From NCBI GenBank assembly GCA_002716765.1, contig PBBY01000004.1, positions 1 to 54,625 on the forward strand: a stretch of 54,625 bases of DNA, in the 5' to 3' direction. A model generated the notes under the pieces. That model did no database searches and was not told the origin of the DNA. It worked only from the letters and a program-made list of their open reading frames with translations. Shown here in pieces: positions 9,763 through 42,858 of the stretch. The translations under genes and the position numbers were made by a program. The stretch's first letter is position 1; each line of letters opens with the position of its first letter. The stretch is from Candidatus Magasanikiibacteriota bacterium. GTDB lineage: Bacteria > Patescibacteriota > Patescibacteriia > Magasanikbacterales > UBA922.

Positions 9763-10287
9763 TTATAGCTGACTTCTGTTTGTGTTAAATTGGTTTTTTA
9801 TAAAGTCTCTTGTTTCTCTTTCTATAGCTTGTAGTTCGGATTCTTCGTTTCGGATGTTTGCATCTGTTTCATATTTTTCTATGAGTTGTCTATTGTCATC
9901 AGGTTCTCTTAGGAGTACTTGTGTCACAAAGACGGTGATTGAGTATGCCGATAGTACAATAACAAGACCAAGTGTGCTTATTTTTAAAATATTTTTTGCT
10001 TTTGTTACTTTTTCTTCTTCTCCAGCAGAGGTAAACATAAGGATTCCGGCATAAACTATGGTTAAGACAAAAAGTGTGCCAACAAAAGTAAGCCCATTTC
10101 GTATAATTGCTGCAATAACATCGCGTGGGTCTTTGGATTGGATTATGGCAAGGTCTTGCTCGGCGGCAGCTGAGCCAAGTTGTTTTACTAAATCTGTTCT
10201 GTAGTCAGCAGAAGTGCTGTCTACAAACATAAGAAAAGCCGCAAGCGTCATGGAAAAACAGAGGAGTGTGAAGATGTTTCTTTTCAT
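9763..10287 (-). CDS. Two-TM pilin-like protein, array member 1
   Basis: 174 residues: a signal peptide (1-27, cleavage near STSA/DY), a short exported segment, TM1 (about 66-88, ending in AGILMFTSAG), a basic loop EEEKVTKAKN, TM2 (about 104-126) and a charged helical tail of about 45 residues. The hairpin of two membrane helices with a short positively charged loop is the VirB2/TrbC or T4SS-pilin architecture. It is the last gene of the array, directly before the terminator. Unlike most paralogs it has MFTSAG in place of the WMTA(R/G) motif and no cysteines in the tail. Its role in a surface filament or secretion channel is inferred. Confidence 0.75.
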   Translation of the reverse strand: MKRNIFTLLCFSMTLAAFLMFVDSTSADYRTDLVKQLGSAAAEQDLAIIQSKDPRDVIAAIIRNGLTFVGTLFVLTIVYAGILMFTSAGEEEKVTKAKNILKISTLGLVIVLSAYSITVFVTQVLLREPDDNRQLIEKYETDANIRNEESELQAIERETRDFIKNQFNTNRSQL

Positions 10288-10299
10288 ATATATAAAATA

Positions 10300-10803
10300 T
10301 TATCTACTTACGCAGTCGAATGAGCCTTTTTGCCAGAATTTCCATTTATTTACTTTGCACTGAACCGTTGGCGGTGCCTCTTGGTGAACCCGATCTTGCA
10401 AAGATTTAAGCATAACCTGGCTAACTATTGTAGTAATGGCATATGCAGAAAGGGTGACAAATAATCCAATAACGGCCATTTTTATGGTTGTGAGCGCTTT
10501 TGTTACTTTTTCTTGTTCTCCGGATGCGGTTAAGAGCATGATTCCGGAATAGAGTACAAGTAGTAAGAAGACGGTTCCAACCACAGTAAGAAGTGACTTA
10601 ATAAATTCGGCAATAACTACTTGTGGGTTTTCTCTTGCAACGCCCATTTCTGCACTTTCTGCGCCAGCTTTGAGTTGTTTTGTTACATTTGCCCCAAAAC
10701 CCTTCTGCTTTGTGTTTGTTTCAAGAGCGTTAGCATTTACGAATGAAAACGTAAAAAAGAAAAAAGAAAGACAAATGACTGAAATGAGTAGTTTTTTGTT
10801 CAT
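10300..10803 (-). CDS. Two-TM pilin-like protein, array member 2
   Basis: 167 residues: a signal peptide (1-26, NANA/LE), an exported linker with a helical KQLKAGAESAEMG stretch, TM1 (about 70-92), loop TASGEQEKVTKALTTIK, TM2 (about 108-130) and a tail with two cysteines (VQCK and FDCVSR) that could form one disulfide. It is closest to member 1 by the TASGE/TSAGE loop. The gap to member 1 is 12 bases and to member 3 is 9, so they are cotranscribed. No Shine-Dalgarno is visible. Confidence 0.75.
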   Translation of the reverse strand: MNKKLLISVICLSFFFFTFSFVNANALETNTKQKGFGANVTKQLKAGAESAEMGVARENPQVVIAEFIKSLLTVVGTVFLLLVLYSGIMLLTASGEQEKVTKALTTIKMAVIGLFVTLSAYAITTIVSQVMLKSLQDRVHQEAPPTVQCKVNKWKFWQKGSFDCVSR

Positions 10804-10812
10804 AAAATAGTA

Positions 10813-11484
10813 TTAAAGTAATCCACCCGTGCCTTTTGTTTCGGATGCTTTGTTGAGTCGTTGGAAATTAAGACATTGTGATTCCCTGATTGTAACATAT
10901 TCGCAGTCTAGGGCGTCTGGGTTGTCTTGTTTTGTTTTGGAGGCACAGCCACCCCAATATGATTCACAATTAGATTCTTTTACATATGGAATAGTTTTAT
11001 ATACAGAGGTGGTATCAATGACAGCTTTTGGATCAAATTTTTCTAATAAACAACAGCCAATAATTGGGTCTTGTGCAGAAGACTTTCCTTCGCCGGTTGC
11101 CCGTTTTACAAATTGTGGTACCACAAAGTTGGTAATGGTGTATGCGCCGGTGGTTATAACAATACCAATAATAGCCATGCGAATAGTGGTAATGGATTTG
11201 GTTACTTTTTCGTCCTCTCCGCGTGCGGTTAAGTACAGAAATCCAGCGTAAAACATGAGTGCAAAAAAGAGAGTTCCAATAAATTGCAGGGCAAGGTTTA
11301 TTACTCTTCCAATATTTGTGGCTACACGTGTTTCGTCTGTTCCGGTTACATCAAATCCAGATTTCCTTGCAATGCTTGCACCAAGATCTTGACCAATATT
11401 TAGTTGAGCAAACACGGAGTTTGCAACAAAAAAAGAAAGGAGAAGTGCCAGGAGAATAAAAAGGTAGGTGGTGTTTTTTTTCAT
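10813..11484 (-). CDS. Two-TM pilin-like protein with Cys-rich tail, member 3
   Basis: 223 residues: a signal peptide (1-26, SVFA/QL), TM1 (about 66-88, FYAGFLYLTARGE), loop DEKVTKSITTIR and TM2 (about 103-124). An exported tail of about 95 residues holds a CC pair (144-145) plus four more cysteines. The CC pair shortly after TM2 recurs in members 4, 6 and 8 and defines a subgroup. Tails of this size exceed ordinary VirB2 and may be surface-exposed disulfide domains. Confidence 0.75.
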   Translation of the reverse strand: MKKNTTYLFILLALLLSFFVANSVFAQLNIGQDLGASIARKSGFDVTGTDETRVATNIGRVINLALQFIGTLFFALMFYAGFLYLTARGEDEKVTKSITTIRMAIIGIVITTGAYTITNFVVPQFVKRATGEGKSSAQDPIIGCCLLEKFDPKAVIDTTSVYKTIPYVKESNCESYWGGCASKTKQDNPDALDCEYVTIRESQCLNFQRLNKASETKGTGGLL

Positions 11485-11515
11485 AAGGATTTTGCTGGGT
11501 TAATTAGTGTGTTTA

Positions 11516-12055
11516 TTATCTTCTTTCAGGGGGAACACACTGGTTTTCTGGAATACGTTTTATTTCTCCGGCACAATTATTCTTTTCTTGCTGATTACTG
11601 GCTACGTTTGCGCCTGTTGGAATATTTTTTGTAAATGTTATACAACAATCAACTATTTTTGCTCCTTTTATGTCGGAGGTTTTTGACGTGATTCTTGGTA
11701 AAATAAAAGTAGTAAGGCTGTATGCGCCAATACATAAAACAAGACCAATTATGGATGTACGAATAGTACCTTTTGCTTTTGTGGCTTTTTCTTCGTTTTC
11801 TCTGGCAGTCATCCACATTAATCCGGCATAAACAGTAAGTGCAAGGAAAATGGTTCCGACAAAGGTAAGCAATACATTAATAGTAAACCCAATAGTAGCA
11901 GAAAGTGTTGTGTCTGTTGTTGATTTATCAAAACCAGCAGTTGCTGCTGCATTTCTGACTTTATTTGTACCAATGTCTACTACGGCAAAAGCGGGAAGAG
12001 TAACAAAAAATACCAATATAATGACAGAAATAAAGAGTGAAAGTTTTTTTCGCAT
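11516..12055 (-). CDS. Two-TM pilin-like protein with Cys tail, member 4
   Basis: 179 residues: a signal peptide (1-24, PAFA/VV), a segment IGTNKVRNAAATAGFDK, TM1 (about 60-82), the motif WMTARENEEKATKAK, TM2 (about 101-121) and a tail with a CC pair (137-138) and two more cysteines. The amphipathic exported helix before TM1 is shared with members 3, 5 and 6. There is no Shine-Dalgarno; the start was chosen for the signal peptide. It is separated from member 5 by nine bases. Confidence 0.75.
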   Translation of the reverse strand: MRKKLSLFISVIILVFFVTLPAFAVVDIGTNKVRNAAATAGFDKSTTDTTLSATIGFTINVLLTFVGTIFLALTVYAGLMWMTARENEEKATKAKGTIRTSIIGLVLCIGAYSLTTFILPRITSKTSDIKGAKIVDCCITFTKNIPTGANVASNQQEKNNCAGEIKRIPENQCVPPERR

Positions 12056-12064
12056 AAAAATTAA

Positions 12065-12454
12065 TTAACCTATACTTCCTAATTGTGCGGTAATAAGGTA
12101 TGTAATAGCATAAGCACTTAACGTAATAACTAATCCAATAAGTGTGGTTCGAATTATTGTTTTTGCTTTTGTGGCTTGTTCTTCGTTTTCTCTGGCAGTC
12201 ATCCATAAATAGCCGGCGTAAACCATAAGAACAAGGAAAATAAGACCAATAAAAGACAACGCCACTTGAATAACATTTCCAATAATAACGTCGAGTGATG
12301 CGGTCTTCTTTGTTACCCCAGCCTTACCTGCAGAAGTTGTAAGTTTTTTTTCCCAATCTCCTAATGTTCCGGCAGCGTGTGCGGTGCTTGCGTAAATAAC
12401 TCCAGCAAAAGTAAGTGAAAGGGTGGTGAATTGTTTTTTATATTTGTTTGTCAT
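12065..12454 (-). CDS. Minimal two-TM pilin-like protein, member 5
   Basis: 129 residues, one of the shortest members: a signal peptide (1-28, AHA/AG), an exported helix (KKLTTSAGKAGVTKK), TM1 (about 64-86), WMTARENEEQATKAK, TM2 (about 102-122) and almost no tail. This size and layout are closest to true VirB2/TrbC pilins, so the short members (5, 7, 10) may polymerise while long-tailed members decorate. That division is inference. Confidence 0.75.
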   Translation of the reverse strand: MTNKYKKQFTTLSLTFAGVIYASTAHAAGTLGDWEKKLTTSAGKAGVTKKTASLDVIIGNVIQVALSFIGLIFLVLMVYAGYLWMTARENEEQATKAKTIIRTTLIGLVITLSAYAITYLITAQLGSIG

Positions 12455-12505
12455 ATATTTGCTAACTTTTGTGTAAAGTATTAAACCTAAGATTTTTATT
12501 TATAG

Positions 12506-13207
12506 TTAATTTAGTTGCCAATTAGGTTCACTAAATAGAGTGGTCTGCAAGTCATCCCCGCCAAATTCATTGGCTTTATTGCATATATCTACACAAAGGC
12601 TGTAGCTGCTAAATGTAGAATTAAATCCCGAGGTTCCATTACCACAAACCGGGTCTCCAACCGAGCAGCTTTTTTGCTCTAGCACACACTCTTCTTTTGT
12701 TTTTATGGAACAGGAATATTCATTTGTACCCCAAGAGTCGTTAATCATGTTTATGCAACAACCATAAACCAGGTCTTTTGCTTCCTCAATTTTTTGGCCA
12801 CCTGTTGGTTTTGTTGTTCCGGTTGCACCTTGTAATACAACATTTGTAATAGTGTAGGAAGAAATGACAATAATTAGCCCGATAATTGCTGTTGTCATCA
12901 TGGTTCTGGCTTTTTTTGCTTGTTCTTCGTTTTCTCTTGCGATCATCCAGGTGTAGCCGGCGTATACCATAAGAATAAAAAACACGGCAGTAATAAGGGA
13001 AAGTGCAAGATTTATAATAGTTCCTGATTGGGATTCTACAGTTTGTGTCGCGTCTATTCCTGTGCCTGTTATAGAGGCTTCAAGGAAGTTTGTTGCGCCT
13101 CGTAGTGTTTTCTCATTTGCTTTTGTGTGTAATATGTTAAAAAATAACGAAAAACAGAAACAACTGGCAAGAAGAAAGAGAGTATTTCGTGATAGTTTTT
13201 TGTTCAT
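12506..13207 (-). CDS. Two-TM pilin-like protein with Cys-rich tail, member 6
   Basis: 233 residues: a signal-like first helix (about 8-30), TM1 (about 65-87), the motif WMIARENEEQAKKAR, TM2 (about 104-126) and an exported tail of about 105 residues with ten cysteines, starting with a CC pair (150-151). The cysteine spacing (CSIKTKEEC, CSVGDPVCGNG, CVDIC) suggests a compact disulfide-knotted domain. WMIAR replaces the usual WMTAR. I know no named family for the tail. Confidence 0.73.
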   Translation of the reverse strand: MNKKLSRNTLFLLASCFCFSLFFNILHTKANEKTLRGATNFLEASITGTGIDATQTVESQSGTIINLALSLITAVFFILMVYAGYTWMIARENEEQAKKARTMMTTAIIGLIIVISSYTITNVVLQGATGTTKPTGGQKIEEAKDLVYGCCINMINDSWGTNEYSCSIKTKEECVLEQKSCSVGDPVCGNGTSGFNSTFSSYSLCVDICNKANEFGGDDLQTTLFSEPNWQLN

Positions 13208-13241
13208 AGCAGTGGTTTGAGGTTAAGGAAGGTGTGGGTTA

Positions 13242-13634
13242 TTATTGACTGCCATCAGTCGGAGGAGATGTATTCTCTTCTACGCTTGTAAAGACAAAAT
13301 TGGTAATGGCGTAGGCGGAAAGTACCACAACCAATCCTATAATTGCGGCAATAATGGTTTTTTGTGCTTCTTTTACACCCTCTTCGTTTCCTCTGGCGGT
13401 CATCCATTTAAATCCAGCGTATACCATAAGGATAAAGAAAATAACACCAATTATAGAAAGTATGGTTCCGATAAGGTTTCCAATAATAGCTTCTGGCTCC
13501 TCTTTAATGGTTAGTCCGGCATAATTGGCAGTAATCTCTAATCCACCAGCTTCTGCAGCAAAACTATGTGCCGCTGGAAAAAGTGTAAAAAGGAGAATAG
13601 TAAGACTGCTAAATAATATAATGGATTTTTTCAT
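13242..13634 (-). CDS. Minimal two-TM pilin-like protein, member 7
   Basis: 130 residues: a signal peptide (1-26, SFA/AEAGG), a short exported segment, TM1 (about 53-75), WMTARGNEEGVKEAQKT, TM2 (about 91-112) and a short Ser/Pro-rich tail. It is a short candidate structural pilin. The loop has EGVKEAQKT instead of the more basic KVTKA pattern. It lies 34 bases from member 6 and 66 bases after member 8. Confidence 0.75.
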   Translation of the reverse strand: MKKSIILFSSLTILLFTLFPAAHSFAAEAGGLEITANYAGLTIKEEPEAIIGNLIGTILSIIGVIFFILMVYAGFKWMTARGNEEGVKEAQKTIIAAIIGLVVVLSAYAITNFVFTSVEENTSPPTDGSQ

Positions 13635-13700
13635 AGAGTTAAGTTAATGGTTTTTTTATATTTTTGTGTCGTTTTTTCATAATAGAGTTTCAATTCAATC

Positions 13701-14495
13701 CTAATTAGGTTCTCTGAGTTCTTGACAAATGCATGTTTCTTTATCATCAGTCAACTCACAATTACCAACCCATCCTTTGTTGGAGCATGCTTCTCCTACA
13801 TTCTTACCAATACAAGCATCCCAAGTTGAAAATGTGCCATCTGGTTGTGCTTTTACTTCTGTATTTGGACAAAGTCCTGGTACAAGAAGCTCGGTAAGTG
13901 CTTTTATGTCTTCGTTTTGTGGTGAACATTGTTCCGCATTATTTGTAGGATAAAATGTGTTGGCAAAATAATCAGTATTTTGACCCCTTGCACTATTAAA
14001 TGCATCATCACACTCTTTTTGGGTAAATAAACTTTCAATTAAGAAAATACCTTTTTCTTTATCTTTTGGGATCAGTACACAACACCCTTTATCTCCTTCA
14101 TTCTCACTCTCACCTTCTAAACTGGAAAACAAGAAATTTGTTAATGAATATGACGAAAGTACTATGATTAATCCAACCGATGCTGCAATTATGGTACTTT
14201 GTGCTTTTTTTGCTTGATCTTCTTTTCCTCTTGCTGTCATCCACAAAATTCCTGCATAAACCATTAGGATAAAAAATATTACGGCAACGGTGTAGAGTAA
14301 CGCGCCCAATGCTTTTCCGATCATTGTTGGGATGTCTCTATTTTTTCTAAAATCTGCATCTACTATGCTGTTTGTATCAGAAAATCCTTTTTTTACTTGT
14401 TCTATTGCGTTACTTTGTGCCAATGTGTGTTGAAATGGCGCAATACACAAAAATAATAGAAGTAATAGGAGTATATTTTTGTGTCGTTTTTTCAT
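13701..14495 (-). CDS. Two-TM pilin-like protein with long Cys-rich tail, member 8
   Basis: 264 residues: a signal peptide (1-26, LAQ/SN), TM1 and TM2 (about 62-84 and 100-122) around WMTARGKEDQAKKAQST, then an exported tail of about 140 residues with a CC pair and ten further cysteines. The DNA encoding the membrane core (about 14129-14336) is nearly identical to that of member 9 (14901-15108), with about four differences visible, while the first part of the two tails is unrelated. This points to recent duplication or gene conversion limited to the core. The tail ends (LVPGLCPNT and CELTDD..CIC) do resemble those of member 9. Confidence 0.75.
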   Translation of the reverse strand: MKKRHKNILLLLLLFLCIAPFQHTLAQSNAIEQVKKGFSDTNSIVDADFRKNRDIPTMIGKALGALLYTVAVIFFILMVYAGILWMTARGKEDQAKKAQSTIIAASVGLIIVLSSYSLTNFLFSSLEGESENEGDKGCCVLIPKDKEKGIFLIESLFTQKECDDAFNSARGQNTDYFANTFYPTNNAEQCSPQNEDIKALTELLVPGLCPNTEVKAQPDGTFSTWDACIGKNVGEACSNKGWVGNCELTDDKETCICQELREPN

Positions 14496-14511
14496 AACTA
14501 TTTATCAGTTA

Positions 14512-15258
14512 TTAAGGATTTGGTTCGGCTGCTGCACAGCCGCAAACAGAGTCTTCTAACTCACATACACTACCCACTTTTTGGTCACAAATTTCTCCAA
14601 TCCTTCTTCCTATACAAAGATTTTGCCTTGGTTTTTCTGTGGAAACTTGTGTGTTTGGACAAAGTTCTGGTACAAAAAGGTTTGACTGTTCACTTGTTTG
14701 GAAGGCGGTTTCACAGTGACAGTGATTTGGAATATTTGTGTAGTTTTTTATTTGACAAGTACCTTGAATGTTACCCTGATTAGGAATAATAATGGTACAG
14801 ACACTGTCTATTGGTTTATTGTAGCAAGGTGTTTCCATGTTTCCTCCATGAACCACCTTAGATGAGCAGTTCTGTATACTCTCACCCTCCAAACTCGCAA
14901 ACAAGAAATTTGTTAATGAATATGACGAAAGTACTATGATTAATCCAACCGATGCTGCAATTATGGTGCTTTGTGCTTTTTTTGCTTGATCTTCTTTTCC
15001 TCTTGCTGTCATCCACAAAATTCCTGCATAAACCATTAGGATAAAAAATATTACGGCAACGGTGTAGAGTAACACACCCAATGCTTTTCCGATCATTATT
15101 GGGATGTTTGTTTTTTTAAGGCCGGAGTCTGTTATTTGTCCTGCGGTTTGATCTAATCCAAGTTTGCCAAATTTTGTTACGGCAGCAAATGATTGAATTG
15201 GGGCAAAACACACAAAAAAGAGAAATATGATTGATACTATAATGAAACATTTTTTCAT
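14512..15258 (-). CDS. Two-TM pilin-like protein with long Cys-rich tail, member 9
   Basis: 248 residues: a signal peptide (1-25, FAA/VT), a membrane core essentially identical to member 8, and an exported tail with about twelve cysteines. The CC pair is replaced by a single cysteine (QNCSSK) and the middle of the tail differs. The end (LFVPELCPNT, CIGRRIGE, VCELEDSVCGC) parallels that of member 8, so the tails are mosaics of related blocks. The gap to member 8 is 16 bases. Confidence 0.75.
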   Translation of the reverse strand: MKKCFIIVSIIFLFFVCFAPIQSFAAVTKFGKLGLDQTAGQITDSGLKKTNIPIMIGKALGVLLYTVAVIFFILMVYAGILWMTARGKEDQAKKAQSTIIAASVGLIIVLSSYSLTNFLFASLEGESIQNCSSKVVHGGNMETPCYNKPIDSVCTIIIPNQGNIQGTCQIKNYTNIPNHCHCETAFQTSEQSNLFVPELCPNTQVSTEKPRQNLCIGRRIGEICDQKVGSVCELEDSVCGCAAAEPNP

Positions 15259-15290
15259 ACTTTTGTATGTGTTTTACGGGTTTTGCGCTG

Positions 15291-15707
15291 TTATTGTTGG
15301 TCTACTCTTTCTGTTTCTACGCCCGTTTCATAATCAATTCCTGTGGTTGCGCTATATAGTTGTGTAGTAACAAATCTGGAAATAGAGTAGGCGCTTAAAA
15401 TTAATGCTAAACCAATAACCGATGAAAAGAGTACTTTTTTTGCTTTTGCTACTTGATCGTCATTTCCTCCGGAAGTCATCCACATAAATCCTGCATACAC
15501 AATAAGAATGAGTGCGACAATACCAAGTAATCCAAGGGCAACGTTAATAATTTCTGCTGTTGTTGTTCGAATATCTTTTGCACCAAGACCAGAACGTGCA
15601 CCATGACGAACACCAAGTGGGTCAGCACCTTGAGCTTGGGTTGCGGTTGGTAAAACAGTGAATGAAAAGAAGAGAAAGGCACAAGCAAAAAGACAAGCTT
15701 TTTTCAT
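15291..15707 (-). CDS. Minimal two-TM pilin-like protein, member 10
   Basis: 138 residues: a signal peptide (1-25, TQA/QG), an exported helix, TM1 (about 55-77), WMTSGGNDDQVAKAKK, TM2 (about 91-112) and a short tail. WMTSGGNDDQVAKAKK links it to members 11 and 12 (WMTA-GNDDKVEEAKK) and separates it from the TARE/TARG group. It lies 110 bases downstream of member 11, after the 3' hairpins of that gene. Confidence 0.75.
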   Translation of the reverse strand: MKKACLFACAFLFFSFTVLPTATQAQGADPLGVRHGARSGLGAKDIRTTTAEIINVALGLLGIVALILIVYAGFMWMTSGGNDDQVAKAKKVLFSSVIGLALILSAYSISRFVTTQLYSATTGIDYETGVETERVDQQ

Positions 15708-15756
15708 AGAAGTGTATTATGTAAATAATATGCGCATCACCTTGTAAAAGATGGTG

Positions 15757-15812
15757 TAAAAACTAGAAATTAGAGACTACTTTCCAGTTTTTAAAAGGGA
15801 ATAACCCCTTTT
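15757..15812 (-). terminator. Tandem 3' hairpins after member 11
   Basis: On the minus strand AAAAGGG...CCCTTTT is followed by a longer hairpin AAAACTGGAAA...TTTCTAGTTTT ending in a T run. A near copy follows member 12 at 16341-16395. These may terminate or stabilise the mRNA of an abundant pilin. Confidence 0.6.
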
Positions 15813-15818
15813 AAATTA

Positions 15819-16277
15819 TTAAAAACTATATTGATTTGCTCCGGTAACAGCAGTGGCTTGACCAAGTTGAATAAGCACAAATCTGGCGATTGCCCAGGCA
15901 CTCATTATGATTGCCAAACCAATTATTCCAGATAAAATAAGTTTCTTTGCTTCTTCTACTTTGTCGTCGTTTCCTCCGGCAGTCATCCATTTAAATCCAC
16001 CAAGAAGAATTATAACAACAGCAACGATTCCAAGTAAGCTCAGCATAACATTTATGATTCTGGCAACGGTTGTTTGCAAATCTGCTTTTCCAAGTGCAGT
16101 GGTTTCGTGAATTGGATCAATACCAAAAACATCATCATTTTGTGCGGCACCTTGATTGTTTGGTTCAACCCCACCATCGTTTGCAAAAACATTTGATGCG
16201 GCTAATGTAGAAAATAGTACGGCTGCAATAATTGCAATAATAGTTTTGTATTTTACTAAACGCATTGCTAAATACAT
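15819..16277 (-). CDS. Two-TM pilin-like protein with strong RBS, member 11
   Basis: 152 residues: a signal peptide (MYLAMRLVKY start, cleavage near VFA/ND), TM1 (about 77-99), WMTAGGNDDKVEEAKK, TM2 (about 112-134) and a very short tail. The start is secure: AAAGGAGGTGATATT before ATG complements the 16S 3' end almost completely, while most genes here have no Shine-Dalgarno at all. Together with the stable 3' hairpins this marks members 11 and 12 as the likely major, highly expressed subunits. Member 12 is a tandem duplicate with the same signal peptide, RBS and 3' region. Confidence 0.8.
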   Translation of the reverse strand: MYLAMRLVKYKTIIAIIAAVLFSTLAASNVFANDGGVEPNNQGAAQNDDVFGIDPIHETTALGKADLQTTVARIINVMLSLLGIVAVVIILLGGFKWMTAGGNDDKVEEAKKLILSGIIGLAIIMSAWAIARFVLIQLGQATAVTGANQYSF

Positions 16278-16340
16278 AATATCACCTCCTTTTTTGTGTG
16301 GTTTGTCATATATTTTTGTTCTTCACCTAAAAGATGAAGT

Positions 16341-16395
16341 AAAAACTAGAAATTATAGACTACTTTCCAGTTTTTAAAAGGGAATAACCCCTTTT
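16341..16395 (-). terminator. Tandem 3' hairpins after member 12
   Basis: A near copy of 15757-15812: AAAAGGG...CCCTTTT, then AAAAACTGGAAA...TTTCTAGTTTTT. A further small hairpin (CTTCA...TGAAG, 16321-16339) lies just beyond it. Confidence 0.6.
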
Positions 16396-16402
16396 AAAAT
16401 TA

Positions 16403-16912
16403 TTATAGTTCGTATGCTGTTGCTCCGGTAACATCTGTTGCTTGGCCAAGTTGAATAAGTACAAATCTGGCAATTGCCCAGGCACTCATTACAATAGCTA
16501 AACCAATAATTCCAGCTAAAATAAGTTTCTTTGCTTCTTCTACTTTGTCGTCGTTTCCAGCTGCTGTCATCCATTTAAATCCACCAAGAAGTATGATAAC
16601 TACTGCAACAATCCCAAGTAAACTTAATGCAACGTTAATGATTCTTGCAATAGTAGTTTGTAAATCTGCTTTTCCTAGTGCGGTTGTGCCATGAATGGAG
16701 TCCATACCAAATACATCAACTTGAGCTGCAACTTTACAAATACCATTGAAACAGACGTCGGTTTCTAATGTACAAGTATTTCCAGGTAGACACACGTCAT
16801 CTGTATCACCAGCTGCTGCAAAAACACTTGATGCGGCTAATGTAGAAAATAGTACTGTTGCAATAATTGCAATAATAGTTTTGTATTTTACTAAACGCAT
16901 TGCTAAATACAT
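16403..16912 (-). CDS. Two-TM pilin-like protein with strong RBS, member 12
   Basis: 169 residues, the tandem duplicate of member 11: identical first residues, the same AAAGGAGGTGATA ribosome site, the same membrane core (WMTAAGNDDKVEEAKK) and the same 3' hairpins. It differs by an insert after the signal peptide with four cysteines (VCLPGNTC and VCFNGIC), which could form a small disulfide loop on the outside of a filament. Duplicate major subunits differing only in an exposed loop would allow switching or mixed filaments; that is inference. Confidence 0.8.
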   Translation of the reverse strand: MYLAMRLVKYKTIIAIIATVLFSTLAASSVFAAAGDTDDVCLPGNTCTLETDVCFNGICKVAAQVDVFGMDSIHGTTALGKADLQTTIARIINVALSLLGIVAVVIILLGGFKWMTAAGNDDKVEEAKKLILAGIIGLAIVMSAWAIARFVLIQLGQATDVTGATAYEL

Positions 16913-16985
16913 AGTATCACCTCCTTTCGTTGTTGGGTTTGTTTCATATAATAATACAGTATGGGAATAATATAATAAAAAAACG

Positions 16986-17414
16986 CTAAAAAATCCCCAG
17001 TATTTGGTTTAGTATAGCATAAGAACCAAAAATCACAAAAAGACCAATGGTTGCGTATAACATGGTTTGTGTGCCTTTTTTTACTTTTTCTTGGTTTCCG
17101 GCAGAGGTAAGCCACATAAACCCACCAAACATAAATGCCAAAAGCGTTAATGATCCAATAATTCCTAATGCTGTTTGCGCAACTTTTCCTATGAGCTCCT
17201 GAGGTGTGGCAGATGCAATTGGGTTTTGAAGCTGTCTTACTTTAGGTGCTATCTTGCTAAGGACGGGTGTTTGTGCTTTCGTATTTTGAGGCACTGCTGG
17301 AGCTGTTGCTGTAGCAGCTGTTGCAAAAGAGGTAAAAGAAAAACAAAAGCCACTAATTAAAATAAGAAAAAGAAATAATTGAATAGGAGAAAGGAGTTTG
17401 CGTTTAGCAGTCAT
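16986..17414 (-). CDS. Two-TM pilin-like protein, member 13
   Basis: 142 residues: a signal peptide (about 1-33), an Ala/Pro-rich exported segment, TM1 (about 78-102, with MFGGFMWLTSAGN), loop QEKVKKGTQTMLYA, TM2 (about 113-136) and essentially no tail (ends LGIF). It belongs with members 14-15 by the FGGF core in place of YAGF. An extended -10 (TGCTATACT) lies about 30 bases upstream of the ATG, so an internal promoter drives members 13 onward. Confidence 0.75.
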   Translation of the reverse strand: MTAKRKLLSPIQLFLFLILISGFCFSFTSFATAATATAPAVPQNTKAQTPVLSKIAPKVRQLQNPIASATPQELIGKVAQTALGIIGSLTLLAFMFGGFMWLTSAGNQEKVKKGTQTMLYATIGLFVIFGSYAILNQILGIF

Positions 17415-17440
17415 AAAATACGTATAAAGTAATAGTTAAT

Positions 17441-17449
17441 AGTATAGCA
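17441..17449 (-). promoter_or_regulatory. Extended -10 promoter before member 13
   Basis: Minus strand TGCTATACT, the same element as at 5588-5596. Confidence 0.5.
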
Positions 17450-17503
17450 TTAACGTGTTGGAAAAAAAAGGCGTAGCACTGTGCAAAACACACACGTAAG
17501 TTG

Positions 17504-18262
17504 TTATTTTATTACGCGTACGTTTTCTTTTACGCCAGTTGTGTCTAAAACAATTTGTATTATTAAATGAGCAAAAATTGCGATACAAATACCAATAACC
17601 GCGGCAATCATAATACCTTGACCTTTTTTAAACTTTTCCGGGTTTCCAAAAGACATAATCATGGTAAATCCACCAAATAAAAACATAACAAAAGCAATGG
17701 AACCAATAATACTTAAAATAAATTCAGAAATGTTAATACCAATACATAAATAATCATTGAGATTTCTACAATTGCCATCTACGGCGCATTGTGGTAATAA
17801 TCCTTCCACTTTTTTGCATCTGTCTACAAGTGGTTCTTGGAGTTTTTTTGCAATTTCTTTTTCTGCTGGGCCAATGCTTGCGCTTATTGTTGTGATTTCG
17901 TCAAGTGTTTTATTTAAGACTTCAACACTTTTCAAAAAATCAATATTCTGGCTTAAGTTTAAGGGGTCTACTGTTAGAACTTCTAAAATAATGTTTTCCG
18001 CCTCAGTTAACAGATCTTTTACTTTTTCAATCACAAGTTTAGCTTCTGTTTGGTAGGCAAGGTCTTTTGTACTTGCTAATAACGTTTTAGCCTCATCCAT
18101 AATTCTTTCTGAGTCTGTTAAGATACTGTCTTCGTATGATCCTTCTACAAACAAATCAGAAATTTTTTGCGCCTTTACTACAAAAGGTAAAAATAGAGCA
18201 CAAATAATACTACATATAATGGTGTGTATAAAAAAGCGGGGGAGTGTGCGAGAGTGTGTCAT
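17504..18262 (-). CDS. Coiled-coil two-TM pilin-like protein, member 14
   Basis: 252 residues: a signal peptide (1-31, VKA/QK), a helical exported domain (about 40-150, heptad-like, rich in Glu, Lys and Leu) and a Cys motif of five residues (CKKVEGLLPQCAVDGNC, then YLCIGINIS). Two TMs follow (about 183-206 and 217-240) around FGGFTMIMSFGNPEKFKKG. It forms a pair with member 15: the Cys motif and core are nearly identical but the coiled coils differ. The fixed Cys motif probably anchors the exported helix bundle to the membrane hairpin. Confidence 0.75.
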   Translation of the reverse strand: MTHSRTLPRFFIHTIICSIICALFLPFVVKAQKISDLFVEGSYEDSILTDSERIMDEAKTLLASTKDLAYQTEAKLVIEKVKDLLTEAENIILEVLTVDPLNLSQNIDFLKSVEVLNKTLDEITTISASIGPAEKEIAKKLQEPLVDRCKKVEGLLPQCAVDGNCRNLNDYLCIGINISEFILSIIGSIAFVMFLFGGFTMIMSFGNPEKFKKGQGIMIAAVIGICIAIFAHLIIQIVLDTTGVKENVRVIK

Positions 18263-18271
18263 ATAGTGGTA

Positions 18272-18985
18272 TTATTTTACAGCTCTAAAACTGTCATGTG
18301 TACCAAGAGTATCTAGAATAAGATCCACAATAAGATGTGCCGAAAGTGCAACAACAATTCCTACAACGGCCAAAACCATAATACTTCTACCTTTTTTAAA
18401 CTTTTCTGGGTTTCCAAAAGACATGATCATGGTAAAACCACCAAATAAAAACATCACAAAAGCGATGGAACCAATTAATTGAAGGAGGAGTTTTGATATA
18501 TTTATTCCCATGCAAACATAATCATCGGTATCAAGACAATTACCATCCAAAGCACATTGTGGTAATAAGCCTTTAATAGCTGCACATCGGTTTGGGAGGT
18601 TGTCTGATAAGGTGTTAAAACTAGCGCTTGTTTTGGTTCTTAATGCGGTAATTTTTGTTTCAATATTAAGTTTGTTAACTTCAAGAAGATCTGCTTGTTT
18701 GGAATTATTTTTTGCAAATGTATCCCACTTTTCTGCTAATTCTAACTCTGCTTCAAATCTTTTATAGGTAGTGTTTGCTGTTTCTTTTGTGGCAAAACGA
18801 GGTATGTCTCTTGCTGCATCTTGGGCGGCTTTTAGGTGTGTGTTAGCTTGGTCTATTGCTTTTTGTATTGCCGGATCTGTTATTGCTAAAGCAGTGTACT
18901 GAATGGCAAAAAAGGCACATATACAAAGAGTGGCATAAAAGAAATAATGGATTTTTTTAAAGCGAAAATAATTGCGCGTGATCAT
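18272..18985 (-). CDS. Coiled-coil two-TM pilin-like protein, member 15
   Basis: 237 residues, the partner of member 14: a signal-like helix (about 14-34), a helical exported domain (about 35-135), the motif CAAIKGLLPQCALDGNC and YVCMGINIS, and the core MFLFGGFTMIMSFGNPEKFKKG. It is separated from member 14 by nine bases, so it is a tandem duplicate in the same transcript. The next gene upstream is the solute-binding lipoprotein (31 bases away). Confidence 0.75.
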   Translation of the reverse strand: MITRNYFRFKKIHYFFYATLCICAFFAIQYTALAITDPAIQKAIDQANTHLKAAQDAARDIPRFATKETANTTYKRFEAELELAEKWDTFAKNNSKQADLLEVNKLNIETKITALRTKTSASFNTLSDNLPNRCAAIKGLLPQCALDGNCLDTDDYVCMGINISKLLLQLIGSIAFVMFLFGGFTMIMSFGNPEKFKKGRSIMVLAVVGIVVALSAHLIVDLILDTLGTHDSFRAVK

Positions 18986-19016
18986 AAAATGGAATTACAA
19001 TAAAAAGAGTAAAAGA

Positions 19017-20396
19017 TTAATTTGTTCCTTGCATTTGGTTTGGCAGGTTTTGTATAATGTCTTCTTGTCGTTTTTGTGCAATATCTTCTGGATATTCTTC
19101 TATAATGGTGTCTAAGTATTCTTTTATTTTTGTATACGCACCGGTTGCGTCTGTGCCACGATACCAATTTTTTGCGGTAAGAATTTGCGATGCAAATGGT
19201 CCTAAAAATGGATCTTCTGATTGTGCTGCAATTTGTGATCGTAATGGCGATGGTTGATTTGTTGCTTTGGAGTATTTTTCTATATTAGCAGGTAATGTAA
19301 TAAAGCGAACAAAATCCCATGCATGATCTTTGTGTTTGGATTTTTTTACGACACTTTCTATCCAATAAGACGCAACATTGACCGGTTCGGCTTCGTTGAG
19401 TTGGGGAAGTGGAATAATTTCTAAATTCATTTGTGGTGCTCTGGCGGTTATTCTGGATTTTTCAAAAGAAAACCCAATATAAAAGACGGATTTATTTTGG
19501 ACAAATGCATCAAATGCACGTTCTTTGTCTGTGCTCCAAGAATAGACTTCTTTTGTTGGCCTGGCAAAGTCCGTATAAAAACGGGTTACTTCGTATGCTG
19601 GATCATTTTTGTTTGCGCCAGTCATGCCACGAGTAAAGGATAAATACCCTCTTTGTGCGACATCTATTCCTTTTTGCATTAATAGTGCGGCAAAAATATC
19701 TGCTGAATTGGCAATATTACTCCCGGTGCCAAGCGCAATACCAGATTGTATAATATCGCCATTATTGTTATAAATTGTTGCTTTTTTTACGGCGTCTGTT
19801 AATTCTGTCCAATTTGTTGGTGGTGTAGGAATGCCGGCACGGTCGAGTAAATCTTTGTTGTAATATACAGCCAATGTGTCTACGGCCAATGGTAGTCCAT
19901 AAACGGTGTTTCCACTAATTACATCTTCTGAGACGGTTTTTATGTAATTACTTCTTATCCATGATTTGCTTGGTAGAGGGTTTGTTTCAAAGGTAACAAC
20001 CGGTTCCTGTGTGTATTTTCCTTTTATAAAAAAGTTTGCGGTTGTGGCTGAGTCTGGCATTTTGTCTATTCTTGATCTGTATTTTTCTAATTCTTTTATG
20101 GGAACAGAAATAATATCTGGTCCAACGTCGTCTGCAAGGGCATTAACAAATAATTCATCAAATTCCTCTAATCGTACGCGGCGAATATTGACATTTACGT
20201 ATGATCTTTGTGCATTATATTCTTTTGCAAAGTTTCGTAATTGGTTTACGTCATTATAAATAGTCCAATACGATAATTTTACTGGTCTAATTGCCGCCGT
20301 TTCTTTTTCCGAAAGGCCTTTGCAGCCAACACCAGACAAAAGAAGAACGGCACAGAGAATTCCGGTGGTAATATAACGAAATAAAGATCTTTTCAT
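19017..20396 (-). CDS. Extracellular solute-binding lipoprotein, family 1
   Basis: 459 residues, the usual length for sugar-type ABC binding proteins. A lipoprotein signal peptide ends LLLSGVGC (Cys 25). The mature part has the family signature: LSYWTIYNDVNQLRNFAKEY near the start, DDVGPDIISVPIKELEKY, YGLPLAVDTLAVYYNKDLLDRAGI, and W..AWDFVRFIT near the end. It should bind an oligosaccharide or similar ligand outside the cytoplasmic membrane. No ABC permease or ATPase is nearby. It lies between pilin-like members 15 and 16 on the same strand, so it may hand ligand to, or be displayed with, the filament system rather than feed an importer. The context-based role is inference. Confidence 0.85.
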   Translation of the reverse strand: MKRSLFRYITTGILCAVLLLSGVGCKGLSEKETAAIRPVKLSYWTIYNDVNQLRNFAKEYNAQRSYVNVNIRRVRLEEFDELFVNALADDVGPDIISVPIKELEKYRSRIDKMPDSATTANFFIKGKYTQEPVVTFETNPLPSKSWIRSNYIKTVSEDVISGNTVYGLPLAVDTLAVYYNKDLLDRAGIPTPPTNWTELTDAVKKATIYNNNGDIIQSGIALGTGSNIANSADIFAALLMQKGIDVAQRGYLSFTRGMTGANKNDPAYEVTRFYTDFARPTKEVYSWSTDKERAFDAFVQNKSVFYIGFSFEKSRITARAPQMNLEIIPLPQLNEAEPVNVASYWIESVVKKSKHKDHAWDFVRFITLPANIEKYSKATNQPSPLRSQIAAQSEDPFLGPFASQILTAKNWYRGTDATGAYTKIKEYLDTIIEEYPEDIAQKRQEDIIQNLPNQMQGTN

Positions 20397-20417
20397 ACAA
20401 AAAGGGATAAAAATACA

Positions 20418-21458
20418 TTAAAATACATTTTTGAAAATAAAGTTAACAATAATATAACTGGTTAAAATAACAATCACACCAGCCGAAGTCCAAAAAATCA
20501 TATTCATTGCTTTTTTCTCTCGCTCGGCGTTTCCGGCAGCAGTCATCCACATAATGCCAGAAAAAACAAATAATACAAGTGTAATGGAACCAATAATTTG
20601 CATAATAAGTTTTATGGCTTTTCCGATTACTTTTGCTGGATCAGACATTTGACTAACGCGGATTGTACCAAGCAGGCTTTGATATTCTTCGATAACAAGT
20701 GGTTCTTCTGTAATTTGTGTGGTAATCGGTTTGTCTGAACATTGGTCTTTAACAATAAAACAGTCTACACACCGAATCCTTCCAAATTCCTTTGTTGAGT
20801 CAAGTGCACCACAATCATTTTCCTGGGATTTGTGAGTGGCATTATTGTAAAAAAACTTTGTTTGTGAATAATTTTTACCATTAATAACAAAAGTAAAAGA
20901 TTCACACGCTTCATTTCCCTGTAAAACAAAGTTGCCACAAGTGTCGCCACTTAGCCTATTAAGATTATCGATGATTTCTTCAGTATTTGCTACATATTTT
21001 TGTAATTGTTTTTCTAGTTTCATAAAACTAGTAGCCAAGTTAATACGTTTTTCTCTTGTGTCAGAATTACTGCAATAAAGATGTGGTTGAACTCTATCAA
21101 CCAGATCCTGAATTCTTCTTGGTCGATTCGCACTGGCACTTATACTATAAGATCTACTTTTTCTTATCTTTTCCTTAATACTCTCAATTTTAGTAGAAGT
21201 GGTTTTGTCGGGTTTTTGTGTAAGAAGTGTATCATACATAGTTTCTACCTCAGCAAGTAGTGTGTTTCTCTTTTGTATTTCCTGTGTCCATTTTGTATGA
21301 GCCTTTTTTGCAAAAGACATTTCTCTTGGAGTACACTCTGGATTTTCAATCCTTTTATACCGTTCTCCCAAAGCAAAAACCGGCGTAGCACTACTTAATA
21401 AAAAAAACACTCCGATCAAAAAAGAGAAAATATATAGTATGTTTTTTCTTTTAGTCAT
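20418..21458 (-). CDS. Long two-TM pilin-like protein, array member 16
   Basis: The ORF begins at 21536, but the signal peptide starts at MTKRKNILYIF (ATG 21458), giving about 346 residues and avoiding overlap with galU. Order: a signal peptide (about 1-30), a long helical exported domain (about 35-190), a Cys-containing segment (C-GNF, CESF, DCGAL, CVDC, C), then TM1 and TM2 near the C-terminus around MWMTAAGNAEREKKAMN. Here the exported domain precedes the hairpin, as in members 14-15. It is the first gene of the array and lies 53 bases after galU. Confidence 0.75.
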   Translation of the reverse strand: MTKRKNILYIFSFLIGVFFLLSSATPVFALGERYKRIENPECTPREMSFAKKAHTKWTQEIQKRNTLLAEVETMYDTLLTQKPDKTTSTKIESIKEKIRKSRSYSISASANRPRRIQDLVDRVQPHLYCSNSDTREKRINLATSFMKLEKQLQKYVANTEEIIDNLNRLSGDTCGNFVLQGNEACESFTFVINGKNYSQTKFFYNNATHKSQENDCGALDSTKEFGRIRCVDCFIVKDQCSDKPITTQITEEPLVIEEYQSLLGTIRVSQMSDPAKVIGKAIKLIMQIIGSITLVLFVFSGIMWMTAAGNAEREKKAMNMIFWTSAGVIVILTSYIIVNFIFKNVF

Positions 21459-21510
21459 GTGAGTGTTTTTAGTGGCACTGTTTTTTTGTGCGCACAGATT
21501 ACCGCGCAAA

Positions 21511-22356
21511 TTACAACAATCCTTGTTTTTTTGCAAAATGCATGGTGGTTTTTAATAATGCAACCTTGTTTCCGGTGTCAAAATAAATTCCTTCGTATTC
21601 ATATGCCAAAAAGTCTTGTTCTTTAGCAAGGGAGTTTGCTGCATCGGCAACCCAAATTTCTTCATCTTTTCCAAATCCCTGTGCTTCTAAATGAGGCCAA
21701 ATATCTTTGGTAAAAATATACCTCATTCCTCCAACAATAAGGCCGTTCGGGGAAACATTTTCTACGCTTGGTTTTTCTTTAAATTCTGTTACGTTGTATA
21801 ATTTGTCTTCTTCTAATTTATTGCCGTAAATATTCCCGTATTTTGTCATGTCTTCTGGGTTTTCTATCTTTTGTACCCCAATTATTGGAGTATTGTGTGA
21901 GTTAAAGACAGAAATAAGCTGAGAAATAACAGGTGTTTTTGCATCTATAATACTGTCACCGTCGGAAAAGGCAAATGAATCGTTTCCTACAAAACCTTTT
22001 GCACAAAGAAGTGCGTGGCCATTTCCCAAAGGTTCTGATTGGCGAGTATAATAGAACCGTACTTTTTTACATAAATCTACTAATGGTTGTAATCTGTTTA
22101 ATTTACCTTTCCCTTCTAAGAAATGCTCAAAGTCTTTGTTTCTGTCAAAATGATCTTCGATTGCACGTTTTTGGGAACTGGTAACAAACATGATTTCTTC
22201 TATACCACTTTCTACCATTTCTTCTACAATATATTGTACGACTGGTTTATCTAAAACGGGTAACATTTCTTTTGGCATGGCTTTTGTGGCAGGCAAAAAA
22301 CGCGTGCCAAACCCTGCAACAACAATAACTCCTTTTTTTACCGATGTGCTATTCAT
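21511..22356 (-). CDS. galU: UTP-glucose-1-phosphate uridylyltransferase
   Basis: 281 residues. It makes UDP-glucose from UTP and glucose-1-phosphate for cell-envelope glycans. The nucleotidyltransferase signature GFGTRFLPATKAMPKEMLP lies at about 15-33. SDGDSIID (metal/UTP site) and the sugar-site motifs VEEMVESGIEEIMFVTS and EFKEKPSVENV are present. The usual PAAGLGTR is changed to VVAGFGTR. An extended -10 (TGATATACT) ends about 12 bases before the ATG, so the mRNA would be almost leaderless. It could supply donors for the GT4 and GT2 enzymes in this window. Confidence 0.93.
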   Translation of the reverse strand: MNSTSVKKGVIVVAGFGTRFLPATKAMPKEMLPVLDKPVVQYIVEEMVESGIEEIMFVTSSQKRAIEDHFDRNKDFEHFLEGKGKLNRLQPLVDLCKKVRFYYTRQSEPLGNGHALLCAKGFVGNDSFAFSDGDSIIDAKTPVISQLISVFNSHNTPIIGVQKIENPEDMTKYGNIYGNKLEEDKLYNVTEFKEKPSVENVSPNGLIVGGMRYIFTKDIWPHLEAQGFGKDEEIWVADAANSLAKEQDFLAYEYEGIYFDTGNKVALLKTTMHFAKKQGLL

Positions 22357-22417: not shown

Positions 22418-23773
22418 TCATATTTCTATGTGTTCGTCAATTTCTATTGGTGCACCAAACCGACTACCTTGTCCTTTGGGGAATCCTGGAGGAGCATCTT
22501 CGAGGAGTTGTGGGTCAAAGGTATACTGCACCGTTTGGTACCCAGAGTAAAAGTCTCCGGCATTAGTTTTGTGCTTAAGACTTGGTAAAGAAGAGGCAAT
22601 ATATGTACCAAGCAAGTGAAAAGAGTTCCTGGTATTTTTTTCTAGTGCTGGGTCATATATATTTCGAAATAATCTTGATATTGATGGAGCCATCAATACC
22701 GCTTCTATTGTCATGTTATTTGGTGAATCATAAGGAATTATTAAAAATCCCCGAGTAAATAGTCCTAAAATATGATTACCGCTATTATCCTTTTTTGTAA
22801 TAGTATCATTAAGAAAAAACCCATATCCAATATTTGGGTTCGTAAAAAACGTTGCTTTTCCGTTTATAACACCATCTATCCATACATAATTATGAACATA
22901 AATAACACCGTTTTCTGGGAAGTCGTAGTGGCCAACAAATACTTCGTTTCCAATAGTGTTACAGTAACTTCTGGAGCAGTTGTGTTGATTGCAGTGGCAT
23001 TCTCGTGATGTTACTTTATACAAGTCAAAACCACCTGTTTCTAGTAACACCACATGCCAACCAAGCCCACCATGTGGTGCAGGAATTATTAATCCTTCAT
23101 CATGTTCTGCCATTGATGATAAGGTGTTAATGGTGTCTTGTCTGAGCCCAACAAAATCAATTGGTGGAACTGGAGAATGCCATAATTCGGCAGGACCACC
23201 AGAACCCTGAATCATATTTGCTTGTATTTCTTGGTTTATAAGTATATTACATGTCAAGGTATTATTACTGTGAACACTTCCAGAAATTTGCATGTCCGAG
23301 GATAATATGCCTGGGTTCTTAATGGTAAGGATATACGGAAATGCAAAACCACCTTCTCCTTGTGTTATTTTAAAAGTTTTTTTGATGTTTGGGTAATTGT
23401 GAAGCCATCCGGTAGATTGAATGCTTGTTGCATCATTTTCGTCCTGTGTAACGGAAATAGCATAAGAGCCGATTACATTGCCGTGTGCATCGGTGTAATC
23501 ATGAACAAATGGTCCTGGAGTTCCTGGTGGATTTCCATCCCATAAATCATCTGGGTTATTGTGTAGTACCCATGAATAATACGTGGTTCCAGCTTCTGCA
23601 ATCTCACGAATTTGTGCATGTTTTGTTATTTGAGTATTGTGTCGTAACACCATTGTGCCATACGCGCTTAACCCAAGCGTAAGACTTAAAAGTAGTGCAC
23701 TACCAAAAACAAGTACTAATAATAATGACGATCCTTTTGTATTAAATCTAAGTTGTGTTAAAAGATTTTGCAT
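22418..23773 (-). CDS. PilX-like minor pilin-associated protein
   Basis: 451 residues. The N-terminus (NTKGSSLLLVLVFGSALLLS, about 11-30, then IREIAEAGTTYYSWVLHN) resembles PilX-type proteins of type IV pilus systems: one hydrophobic helix after a short basic leader, with the typical E-A-G junction. The remainder is a Gly-, Asn- and His-rich beta-type exported domain with a Cys/His cluster (ECHCNQHNCSRSYC, about 263-276) that could bind metal or form disulfides. It is the last gene of a three-gene operon with two prepilins. It probably sits at the pilus tip or assembly site. Confidence 0.7.
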   Translation of the reverse strand: MQNLLTQLRFNTKGSSLLLVLVFGSALLLSLTLGLSAYGTMVLRHNTQITKHAQIREIAEAGTTYYSWVLHNNPDDLWDGNPPGTPGPFVHDYTDAHGNVIGSYAISVTQDENDATSIQSTGWLHNYPNIKKTFKITQGEGGFAFPYILTIKNPGILSSDMQISGSVHSNNTLTCNILINQEIQANMIQGSGGPAELWHSPVPPIDFVGLRQDTINTLSSMAEHDEGLIIPAPHGGLGWHVVLLETGGFDLYKVTSRECHCNQHNCSRSYCNTIGNEVFVGHYDFPENGVIYVHNYVWIDGVINGKATFFTNPNIGYGFFLNDTITKKDNSGNHILGLFTRGFLIIPYDSPNNMTIEAVLMAPSISRLFRNIYDPALEKNTRNSFHLLGTYIASSLPSLKHKTNAGDFYSGYQTVQYTFDPQLLEDAPPGFPKGQGSRFGAPIEIDEHIEI

Positions 23774-23785
23774 AATATCTAGTCA

Positions 23786-24391
23786 CTATGGGAGTTGCAC
23801 AAACGTTTGATAGGTTTTTGGTTTGGGATTGCTCATATTTTTTGACTCAACAATCAGTGTTACTGTAATTAATGATATTTGTGCTATATCTATTGGTTCT
23901 TCTAGTGGGTTATCTGTGTAAACGGATTGTCCGGCAGAATAAAAAGAAAATAATCCGGTTTGTGCGTGTTCATCATTAAGAGTAGTAAAAAGTACTGTTT
24001 CTACGGCGCCAGCTTCGTTATATGAATTAGTATTTTGGTCGTATGGTGTAATAATTTTACGAAGTATGTGGTTTTCCCTTTCGTATTGTATTTTTTTAGG
24101 GAACGTATGAGGTTTCTGTAAATAATAGAATGTAAGTCTGTTTTCTGAGGCAGTGGTAAGCGCAGCCTCTCCTGTTGCCCCCGATGTTATTCGTTTTATT
24201 TCTTCGGTTATTTCTGCAACAAATCGTCTCGCGGCAAATTCTGTGTCTAAGGTGGACTCTAGTTGTGTGCTTTGTGAACTGGCTGCAATAAAAAACTGTG
24301 AAACAGTAAGTATGATAAGTGTAGAAATAGCAATGCAGAGTACTAATTCCATGAGCGTAAATCCTTTTGTGTTTTTTTGCAGTAGTGTCAT
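23786..24391 (-). CDS. Type IV minor prepilin (PilW/PilV-like)
   Basis: 201 residues with a class III signal: a short leader NTKG, then FTLMELVLCIAISTLIILTV (cleavage after G10, Phe at +1, Glu at +5 of the mature protein). The exported part is beta-rich with no cysteine pair. A prepilin peptidase must process it, but none is in the window. The start lies four bases after the stop of the upstream prepilin gene and its own stop 12 bases before the PilX-like gene, so the three are translationally close and likely coexpressed. Confidence 0.85.
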   Translation of the reverse strand: MTLLQKNTKGFTLMELVLCIAISTLIILTVSQFFIAASSQSTQLESTLDTEFAARRFVAEITEEIKRITSGATGEAALTTASENRLTFYYLQKPHTFPKKIQYERENHILRKIITPYDQNTNSYNEAGAVETVLFTTLNDEHAQTGLFSFYSAGQSVYTDNPLEEPIDIAQISLITVTLIVESKNMSNPKPKTYQTFVQLP

Positions 24392-24395
24392 ATGT

Positions 24396-26180: not shown

Positions 26181-26193
26181 GAGAGTAAAAACC

Positions 26194-26219
26194 AAAAAAA
26201 CAAGACGTGGTTCGTCTTG
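26194..26219 (-). terminator. Terminator between the coiled-coil gene and the prepilin operon
   Basis: Minus strand CAAGACG-AACCA-CGTCTTG followed by TTTTTTT. It ends 14 bases before the prepilin ATG. A TGCTATACT extended -10 (26223-26231) lies just upstream, so a start site there would fall inside this hairpin. Confidence 0.75.
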
Positions 26220-42788: not shown

Positions 42789-42829
42789 TGGCACCTCCTT
42801 TTTGATATATATATTGTAGCCACGTCTGT

Positions 42830-42858
42830 ACCGTATCACGGATTCGTTATTTCGTCAA
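42830..42858 (-). promoter_or_regulatory. Promoter of ilvE, TGATACGGT type
   Basis: Minus strand TTGACG (42853-42858), 17 bases, TACGGT (42830-42835) with TGA before it. The -10 is part of a small palindrome CCGT-GAT-ACGG. Confidence 0.55.

Follow-up and report, generated by a model that had tools for sequence, protein, structure and literature searches.

The pilin family analyzed here and tandem arrays of its genes are already known. In Patescibacteria with a monoderm-type T4SS, tandem arrays of VirB2-like genes (PF18895) encode divergent two-helix pilins with signal peptides (PMC12102498, PMC10633639, PMC12857230). For Ca. Southlakia epibionticum, one array of T4SS pilins is known to be essential (PMC10633639). 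In Ca. Minisyncoccaceae, T4SS pilins have been named among the most highly expressed genes with signal peptides (PMC10936435). High expression was elsewhere attributed to closeness to the origin, with Shine-Dalgarno (SD) sites and hairpins unmentioned (PMC12102498). The array described here is likewise tandem and composed of divergent two-helix pilins with signal peptides. It differs from the described arrays in two respects: 16 pilin-type frames are present on the contig, compared with the reported 2-11 pilins per array, and two of its members, 11 and 12, share 83% protein identity, whereas the reported maximum within an array is 54% (PMC12102498).

The window, that is, the whole stretch of 54,625 nt that was analyzed, is contig C4 of an 886-kb genome in 22 contigs. 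The genome is that of a tiny, parasite-like bacterium related to Candidatus Magasanikbacteria, and relatives of the pilin gene occur mainly in Candidatus Magasanikbacteria, followed by Uhr-, Falkow-, Komeili- and Buchananbacteria. In a profile search, 16 minus-strand frames in the interval 9763-21536 matched the Pfam family T4SS_pilin, and the best two matches to this family in the entire genome were members 11 and 12. The pilin genes are the following:

16403-16912, minus strand: member 12, a 169-aa T4SS_pilin-family protein with a signal peptide, a four-Cys N-terminal region and a two-helix pilin core
15819-16277, minus strand: member 11, a 152-aa in-paralog of member 12 without the four-Cys insert
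9763-15707, minus strand: ten further T4SS_pilin-type ORFs of the array, without SD
16986-17414, 17504-18262 and 18272-18985, minus strand: three further pilin-type ORFs, without SD

The array also harbors a gene for a solute-binding lipoprotein (19017-20396). Adjoining the array, at 22418-26195 on the minus strand, are three genes whose products have N-termini like those of type IV prepilins (GSSLLLV, GFTLMEL and GFSTIEI), so that two unrelated pilus systems may be neighbors. At 29878-33414 on the plus strand lies the gene for a likely surface protein of 1178 aa, which contains carboxypeptidase-regulatory-like domains and several Cys-rich DUF4215 repeats.

Members 11 and 12 are preceded by extended SD sites:

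16916-16928, minus strand: SD of member 12, GAAAGGAGGTGAT, a 13-nt complement of the 16S tail
16281-16292, minus strand: SD of member 11, AAAGGAGGTGAT, a 12-nt complement of the 16S tail

The region upstream of the start reads GAAAGGAGGTGATACT-ATG in member 12 and AAAAGGAGGTGATATT-ATG in member 11, and the 16S rRNA of the same genome, with an intact anti-SD, ends in ...GGATCACCTCCTTTC. The matches are thus contiguous over 13 and 12 nt, respectively, which bears out the original prediction that the two genes share a near-complete SD. The distance from AGGAGG to ATG is 7 nt in both genes, which is a proper spacing. The predicted duplexes with the 16S tail (-22.0 kcal/mol for member 12 and -19.5 kcal/mol for member 11) rank first and second among 216 sampled genes, compared with a sample median of -2.3 kcal/mol and a range of +0.8 to -3.6 kcal/mol for every other array member. 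The further claim that most neighbors lack any SD was an understatement, as all array neighbors are without one. The background for these comparisons consists of sampled stretches (12 loci and the window) together with a pattern search of the whole genome. In the latter, the 11-mer AAGGAGGTGAT was found in four copies: one at each of the two pilin genes, one that is the complement of the 16S tail, and an intergenic one on contig C11.

SD sites are rare in this genome: 20 of the 216 sampled genes have a match of at least 6 nt at the first ATG. No SD of note was found for the genes of the main ribosomal-protein cluster or for EF-Tu, which makes the pilin pair exceptional even in comparison with gene classes that are usually translated at a high rate. 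Long SD matches are found at few other genes (41751-42839 of the window, minus strand; L046:2044-2496, minus strand; L041:10806-12047, plus strand), among them a branched-chain aminotransferase-like and an Hsp20-like gene (both recognized by eye) and a gene for an unknown 413-aa protein. The C11 copy of AAGGAGGTGAT (L005:1489-1545, equal to G000:C11 ~29433-29489, plus strand) forms part of the loop of a short hairpin with the stem GUAUCA/UGAUAC, directly behind a stop codon and just ahead of a terminator-like hairpin. This element is possibly a small RNA or a 3' UTR element able to compete for the anti-SD.

On their 3' sides, both genes are followed by stem-loops:

16373-16398, minus strand: hairpin 1 of member 12 (UUUUAAAAGGG/CCCUUUUAAAA), 3' side
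16344-16372, minus strand: hairpin 2 of member 12 (AACUGGAAA/UUUCUAGUU), 3' side
16321-16339, minus strand: third hairpin behind member 12, with a sequence not common to member 11
15791-15814, minus strand: hairpin 1 of member 11, 3' side
15760-15790, minus strand: hairpin 2 of member 11, 3' side
15738-15753, minus strand: third, weaker hairpin behind member 11, 3' side

The tandem stem-loops begin ~7 nt past each stop codon. As had been proposed, they are the same behind both genes, with near-identical DNA (66 of 71 alignment columns match), and each tandem is followed by a third, different and weaker hairpin. Their description as stable holds in a relative sense: the fold z-scores against dinucleotide shuffles are -4.4 for member 11 and -3.5 for member 12, but the hairpins are rich in A+U, and most relatives have stronger ones. 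A search against Rfam returned two tRNAs alone for the window and nothing for L005.

We compared the pair with its relatives using loci that were gathered by protein similarity only; matches were present in 58 of 59 relatives. In all 29 relatives' loci that were fetched, the predicted SD duplex of the ortholog, with the site GAAAGGGGGTGA, AAGGGAGGTGAT or GAAAGGAGGTGA, reaches at least -18 kcal/mol, versus none of the 126 other pilin frames in the same loci, for which any in-frame start was allowed. The larger set comprised 79 named loci of Magasanik-, Uhr-, Falkow- and Komeilibacteria, in which a site of at least -14 kcal/mol was considered strong. Here, 56 of 79 orthologs versus 8 of 510 other pilin frames reach -18 kcal/mol, and 65 of 79 versus 18 of 510 reach -14 kcal/mol. 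At least seven of the eight exceptional frames are tandem in-paralogs or copies from the same clade. The top-scoring frame lacks a strong site in 14 of the 79 loci; in some of these the start was mis-called or the site is on a tandem copy. Buchananbacteria appear to be truly weak in SD.

The structure behind the gene follows the same pattern. Within 80 nt past the stop codon, the median fold z-score is -4.3 for the orthologs (76% below -3) and -0.16 for other pilin frames (n=117; 9% below -3). As the loci are phylogenetically related, the P values for this difference (P ~1e-19) and for the co-occurrence of SD and hairpin (odds ratio 18.6, P ~1e-21) are optimistic. The sequence of the hairpin changes from species to species, while its position and structure persist. 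In genomes from other classes of Patescibacteria, a strong SD and a strong 3' hairpin also go together on one array member, with weaker support (5 of 6 frames versus 16 of 79; P 0.003, likewise optimistic). Far from being a curiosity of this contig, the combination of SD and hairpin is conserved on one array member throughout a large clade. Several relatives (L015, L017, L019 and L035) have behind the ortholog a second 3' hairpin with stem bases of the type TTATGA...TCATAA and otherwise differing sequence, which may represent a nuclease site or a palindromic element of dispersed occurrence.

In selective RNA processing and stabilization (SRPS), stem-loops at the 3' ends of operon segments can set subunit ratios, as established in Clostridium cellulolyticum (PMC4423207). 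The arrangement found here resembles that type, with a stem-loop located 3' of the favored cistron, inside a same-strand array, and conserved across species. Of 79 orthologs, only 10 have a first stem with at least five U in the next eight bases, where base composition alone would give ~6; in 65 of the 79 loci, a further same-strand pilin frame begins within 300 nt. Since U-rich tails are about as frequent as by chance and a further pilin usually follows, stabilizing or processing hairpins are favored over intrinsic terminators, and we regard the hairpins as probable intercistronic elements that stabilize or process the mRNA. Intrinsic termination, which would call for a G+C-rich stem followed by a U-tract, was rejected as a general explanation by this U-tract test. 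An alternative that we consider unlikely is that the hairpins are intrinsic or leaky terminators and that the major pilin ends a short transcript of its own, started at an internal promoter. Downstream pilins would then depend on other promoters or on read-through, and high expression would reflect transcription plus the SD. The A-tract/hairpin/U-tract layout of hairpin 2 in the window does resemble a weak terminator, a few relatives (e.g. L020, L063 and L065) have clear U-tracts, and the 73-nt intergenic gap before member 12 could hold a promoter. However, besides the chance-level frequency of U-rich tails, the U run in the window lies inside the stem, the hairpins on the minus strand were not among the hits of a consensus terminator scan, and several species with tandem copies have the structure behind the last copy only.

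The assignment of the pair to T4SS pilins is based on family scores and predicted structure. Members 12 and 11 match PF18895 with 50.1 and 48.9 bits, respectively, both above the cut-off of 26.6. Against TrbC/VirB2 (PF04956, cut-off 27.9 bits) member 11 falls below at 25.8 bits and member 12 is not listed, and the pair does not reach the 40-bit cut-off of the Mbov_0395 equivalog NF045849 (30.3 and 32.5 bits). AlphaFold predicts helices at residues 11-32, 84-116 and 121-158 with a core pLDDT of ~90, corresponding to a signal peptide and a two-helix hairpin. A fold search of the PDB gave weak two-helix look-alikes alone (E ~0.5 or worse) and no significant match to solved conjugative pilins; a sequence search of solved structures gave no match for the pair. 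A VirB4/TraG-type ATPase gene (PF19044, 92.9 bits) and a PrgI gene are close together on contig C20 rather than on the contig of the window, indicating that a monoderm-type T4SS is present; PF03135 was not found in a search of the genome.

We infer assembly of the marked protein into a pilus from its family. The pair could instead encode an abundant T4SS or envelope membrane protein that does not polymerize. We judge this improbable, even though a pilus has never been seen for the system, Gram-positive-type T4SSs are generally without pili (PMC10633639), and the fold search returned no pilin. The PF18895 score well above the cut-off speaks for a pilin, as do the signal peptide with a two-helix hairpin and the very high predicted output of one subunit, which would suit a polymer. 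Elsewhere in the genome, contig C14 encodes on the minus strand a 749-aa and a ~4,583-aa open-frame protein (L047:8020-10269 and L047:2-7957 in G000:C14), in which a T4SS_pilin domain comes first and is followed by Ig-like domains (Big_5, TIG). Most relatives have side-by-side equivalents, with open frames of up to 26,099 aa (G056), and these proteins resemble adhesins anchored to a pilus or placed at its tip.

In codon adaptation to ribosomal-protein genes, member 12 reaches the 99th percentile and member 11 the 93rd, on a scale that is weak in this genome (median of 0.70 for ribosomal-protein genes versus 0.67 for the background). Together with the family-wide recurrence of the SD and hairpin, this codon usage supports the prediction that, of all products of the array, the pair is probably translated the most. 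The strength of an SD is not a proof of output, since ribosomes can depart more slowly from an over-long site. Since almost all relatives mark the same gene likewise, the pilin is probably the main building block of the host-contact pilus. In the mechanism that we propose, members 11 and 12 would be two recently duplicated versions of the major subunit of a Patescibacteria-type VirB2/T4SS pilus, encoded among ~16 divergent one-strand pilin genes that are probably cotranscribed in part. In a genome with few SD sites, the full-length SD would recruit ribosomes; the hairpins right past the stop codon would protect or define the 3' end, allowing this mRNA segment to outlast its neighbors. The predicted outcome is a skewed subunit ratio out of a polycistronic array.

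It is rather doubtful that the strong SD acts instead as a regulatory switch, through an RNA-binding protein, an antisense RNA or the availability of the anti-SD, with the pilin made only on host contact. The rarity of SD even in ribosomal-protein genes, also a trait of lineages that normally hide their anti-SD, and the second perfect copy of the motif in the loop of the C11 hairpin would suit such a switch. In Bacteroidota, bS21 helps to hide the anti-SD; a search for bS21 in the 90%-complete genome did not find it, and no conserved structure was seen around the SD, both of which count against a switch. The accessibility of the SD is not unusual (unpaired probability of 0.46 versus 0.43 in flank-shuffled controls), which weighs against the major-pilin reading, and a model of SD sequestration was unsupported.

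The two marked genes are a recent, lineage-specific duplication as judged from their sequences: in the tree, members 11 and 12 group as a sister pair (support 100/99), and the only other genome of the same genus, G001, has a single copy. The original prediction of the same signal peptide in both proteins is nearly exact, with 28 of 30 residues identical. Among the first 30 codons, the 28 identical residues show no synonymous differences between the copies, versus 34 in 97 later ones (P 5e-5). In the DNA alignment of the two units the signal-peptide DNA is likewise near-identical and the core diverged. What keeps the ends of the two copies alike would be selection at the RNA level or else gene conversion at each end. 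The same gene was duplicated in tandem independently in at least L057, L067, L069, L073, L107 and L119, and in several of these loci, unlike in the window, the 3' structure is located behind the last copy only. It is very improbable that the SD and hairpins are chance or neutral leftovers of the recent tandem duplication, in which the second copy inherited the flanks of the first: the relationship of these sister in-paralogs and the single copy in G001 would account for the likeness of the copies, but not for the same features on single-copy orthologs in dozens of genera with unrelated hairpin sequences, and the comparative data refute it as a full explanation.

The copies differ by an insert present in member 12 only, in agreement with the original prediction, located between the signal peptide and the first membrane helix:

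16736-16792, minus strand: four-Cys module of member 12 (CLPGNTCTLETDVCFNGIC, residues 41-59), with Cys41, 47, 54 and 59

Other Magasanikbacteria have modules of the form C-x5-C-x5/6-C-x4/5-C at this position (e.g. L048, L054, L056, L069, L077 and L078), and we interpret the insert as a recurring, presumably exterior module. With the signal peptide cleaved off and a charged loop connecting the two helices, both the four-Cys region and the C-terminus would be outside, which is where disulfides form. By this predicted topology the module would lie on the outer face and give one version a disulfide-knotted surface. The proposal of two surface versions is plausible in light of the position of the insert and the recurrence of similar modules there in other species. 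A Cys version is not always paired with a Cys-less copy; some duplicated sets are all-Cys or no-Cys.

Altogether, the pair is likely to be the major pilin of this bacterium in two versions, set apart from the rest of the array by an RNA-encoded cassette. The analysis shows the sequence features with their specificity and conservation, the codon bias and the duplication, and we infer the abundance, mRNA stabilization, assembly and role in host contact. We put forward only tentatively the broader idea that Patescibacteria with little other use of SD sites reserve a near-perfect anti-SD match and protective 3' hairpins for the major pilin of a T4SS pilus used in host contact. Such a phylum-wide stoichiometry mark would name the builder of the shaft, and its duplication here would yield a mixed shaft including a disulfide-knotted version. 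A literature search found no description of this expression mark, nor of SD sites combined with T4SS pilins of CPR bacteria. A conserved mark on one member would make the shaft subunit predictable from sequence in hundreds of uncultured lineages, and provide a target for imaging, tagging and antibodies. It would also be an example of how a reduced genome with little use of SD sets subunit ratios within a polycistronic array.

Among known systems, the papA gene of the pap operon is the classic case of SRPS. In the cip-cel operon of C. cellulolyticum, also governed by SRPS, a stem-loop likewise lies directly behind the cistron that is needed in excess, within a multi-gene array encoding one machine, and the stem-loop positions are likewise conserved across species (PMC4423207). 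The pilin locus differs from the cip-cel operon in combining the stem-loop with an extended SD and in belonging to another phylum and another machine. The F-ATPase subunit c gene (atpE) encodes one multi-copy two-helix membrane subunit that is over-translated via a strong initiation region. The likeness to atpE is restricted to this multi-copy two-helix character and strong initiation region, as there is no homology to pilins, and the mark of the pilin is in contrast a near-perfect anti-SD complement with 3' hairpins. Finally, the VirB2 pilins of the Bartonella Trw system are likewise present in multiple sequence-variable copies, proposed to vary the surface (PMC12857230, PMC12102498). In contrast to Bartonella, here only the duplicated pair carries the putative high-expression mark, and the variation consists of an inserted four-Cys module.
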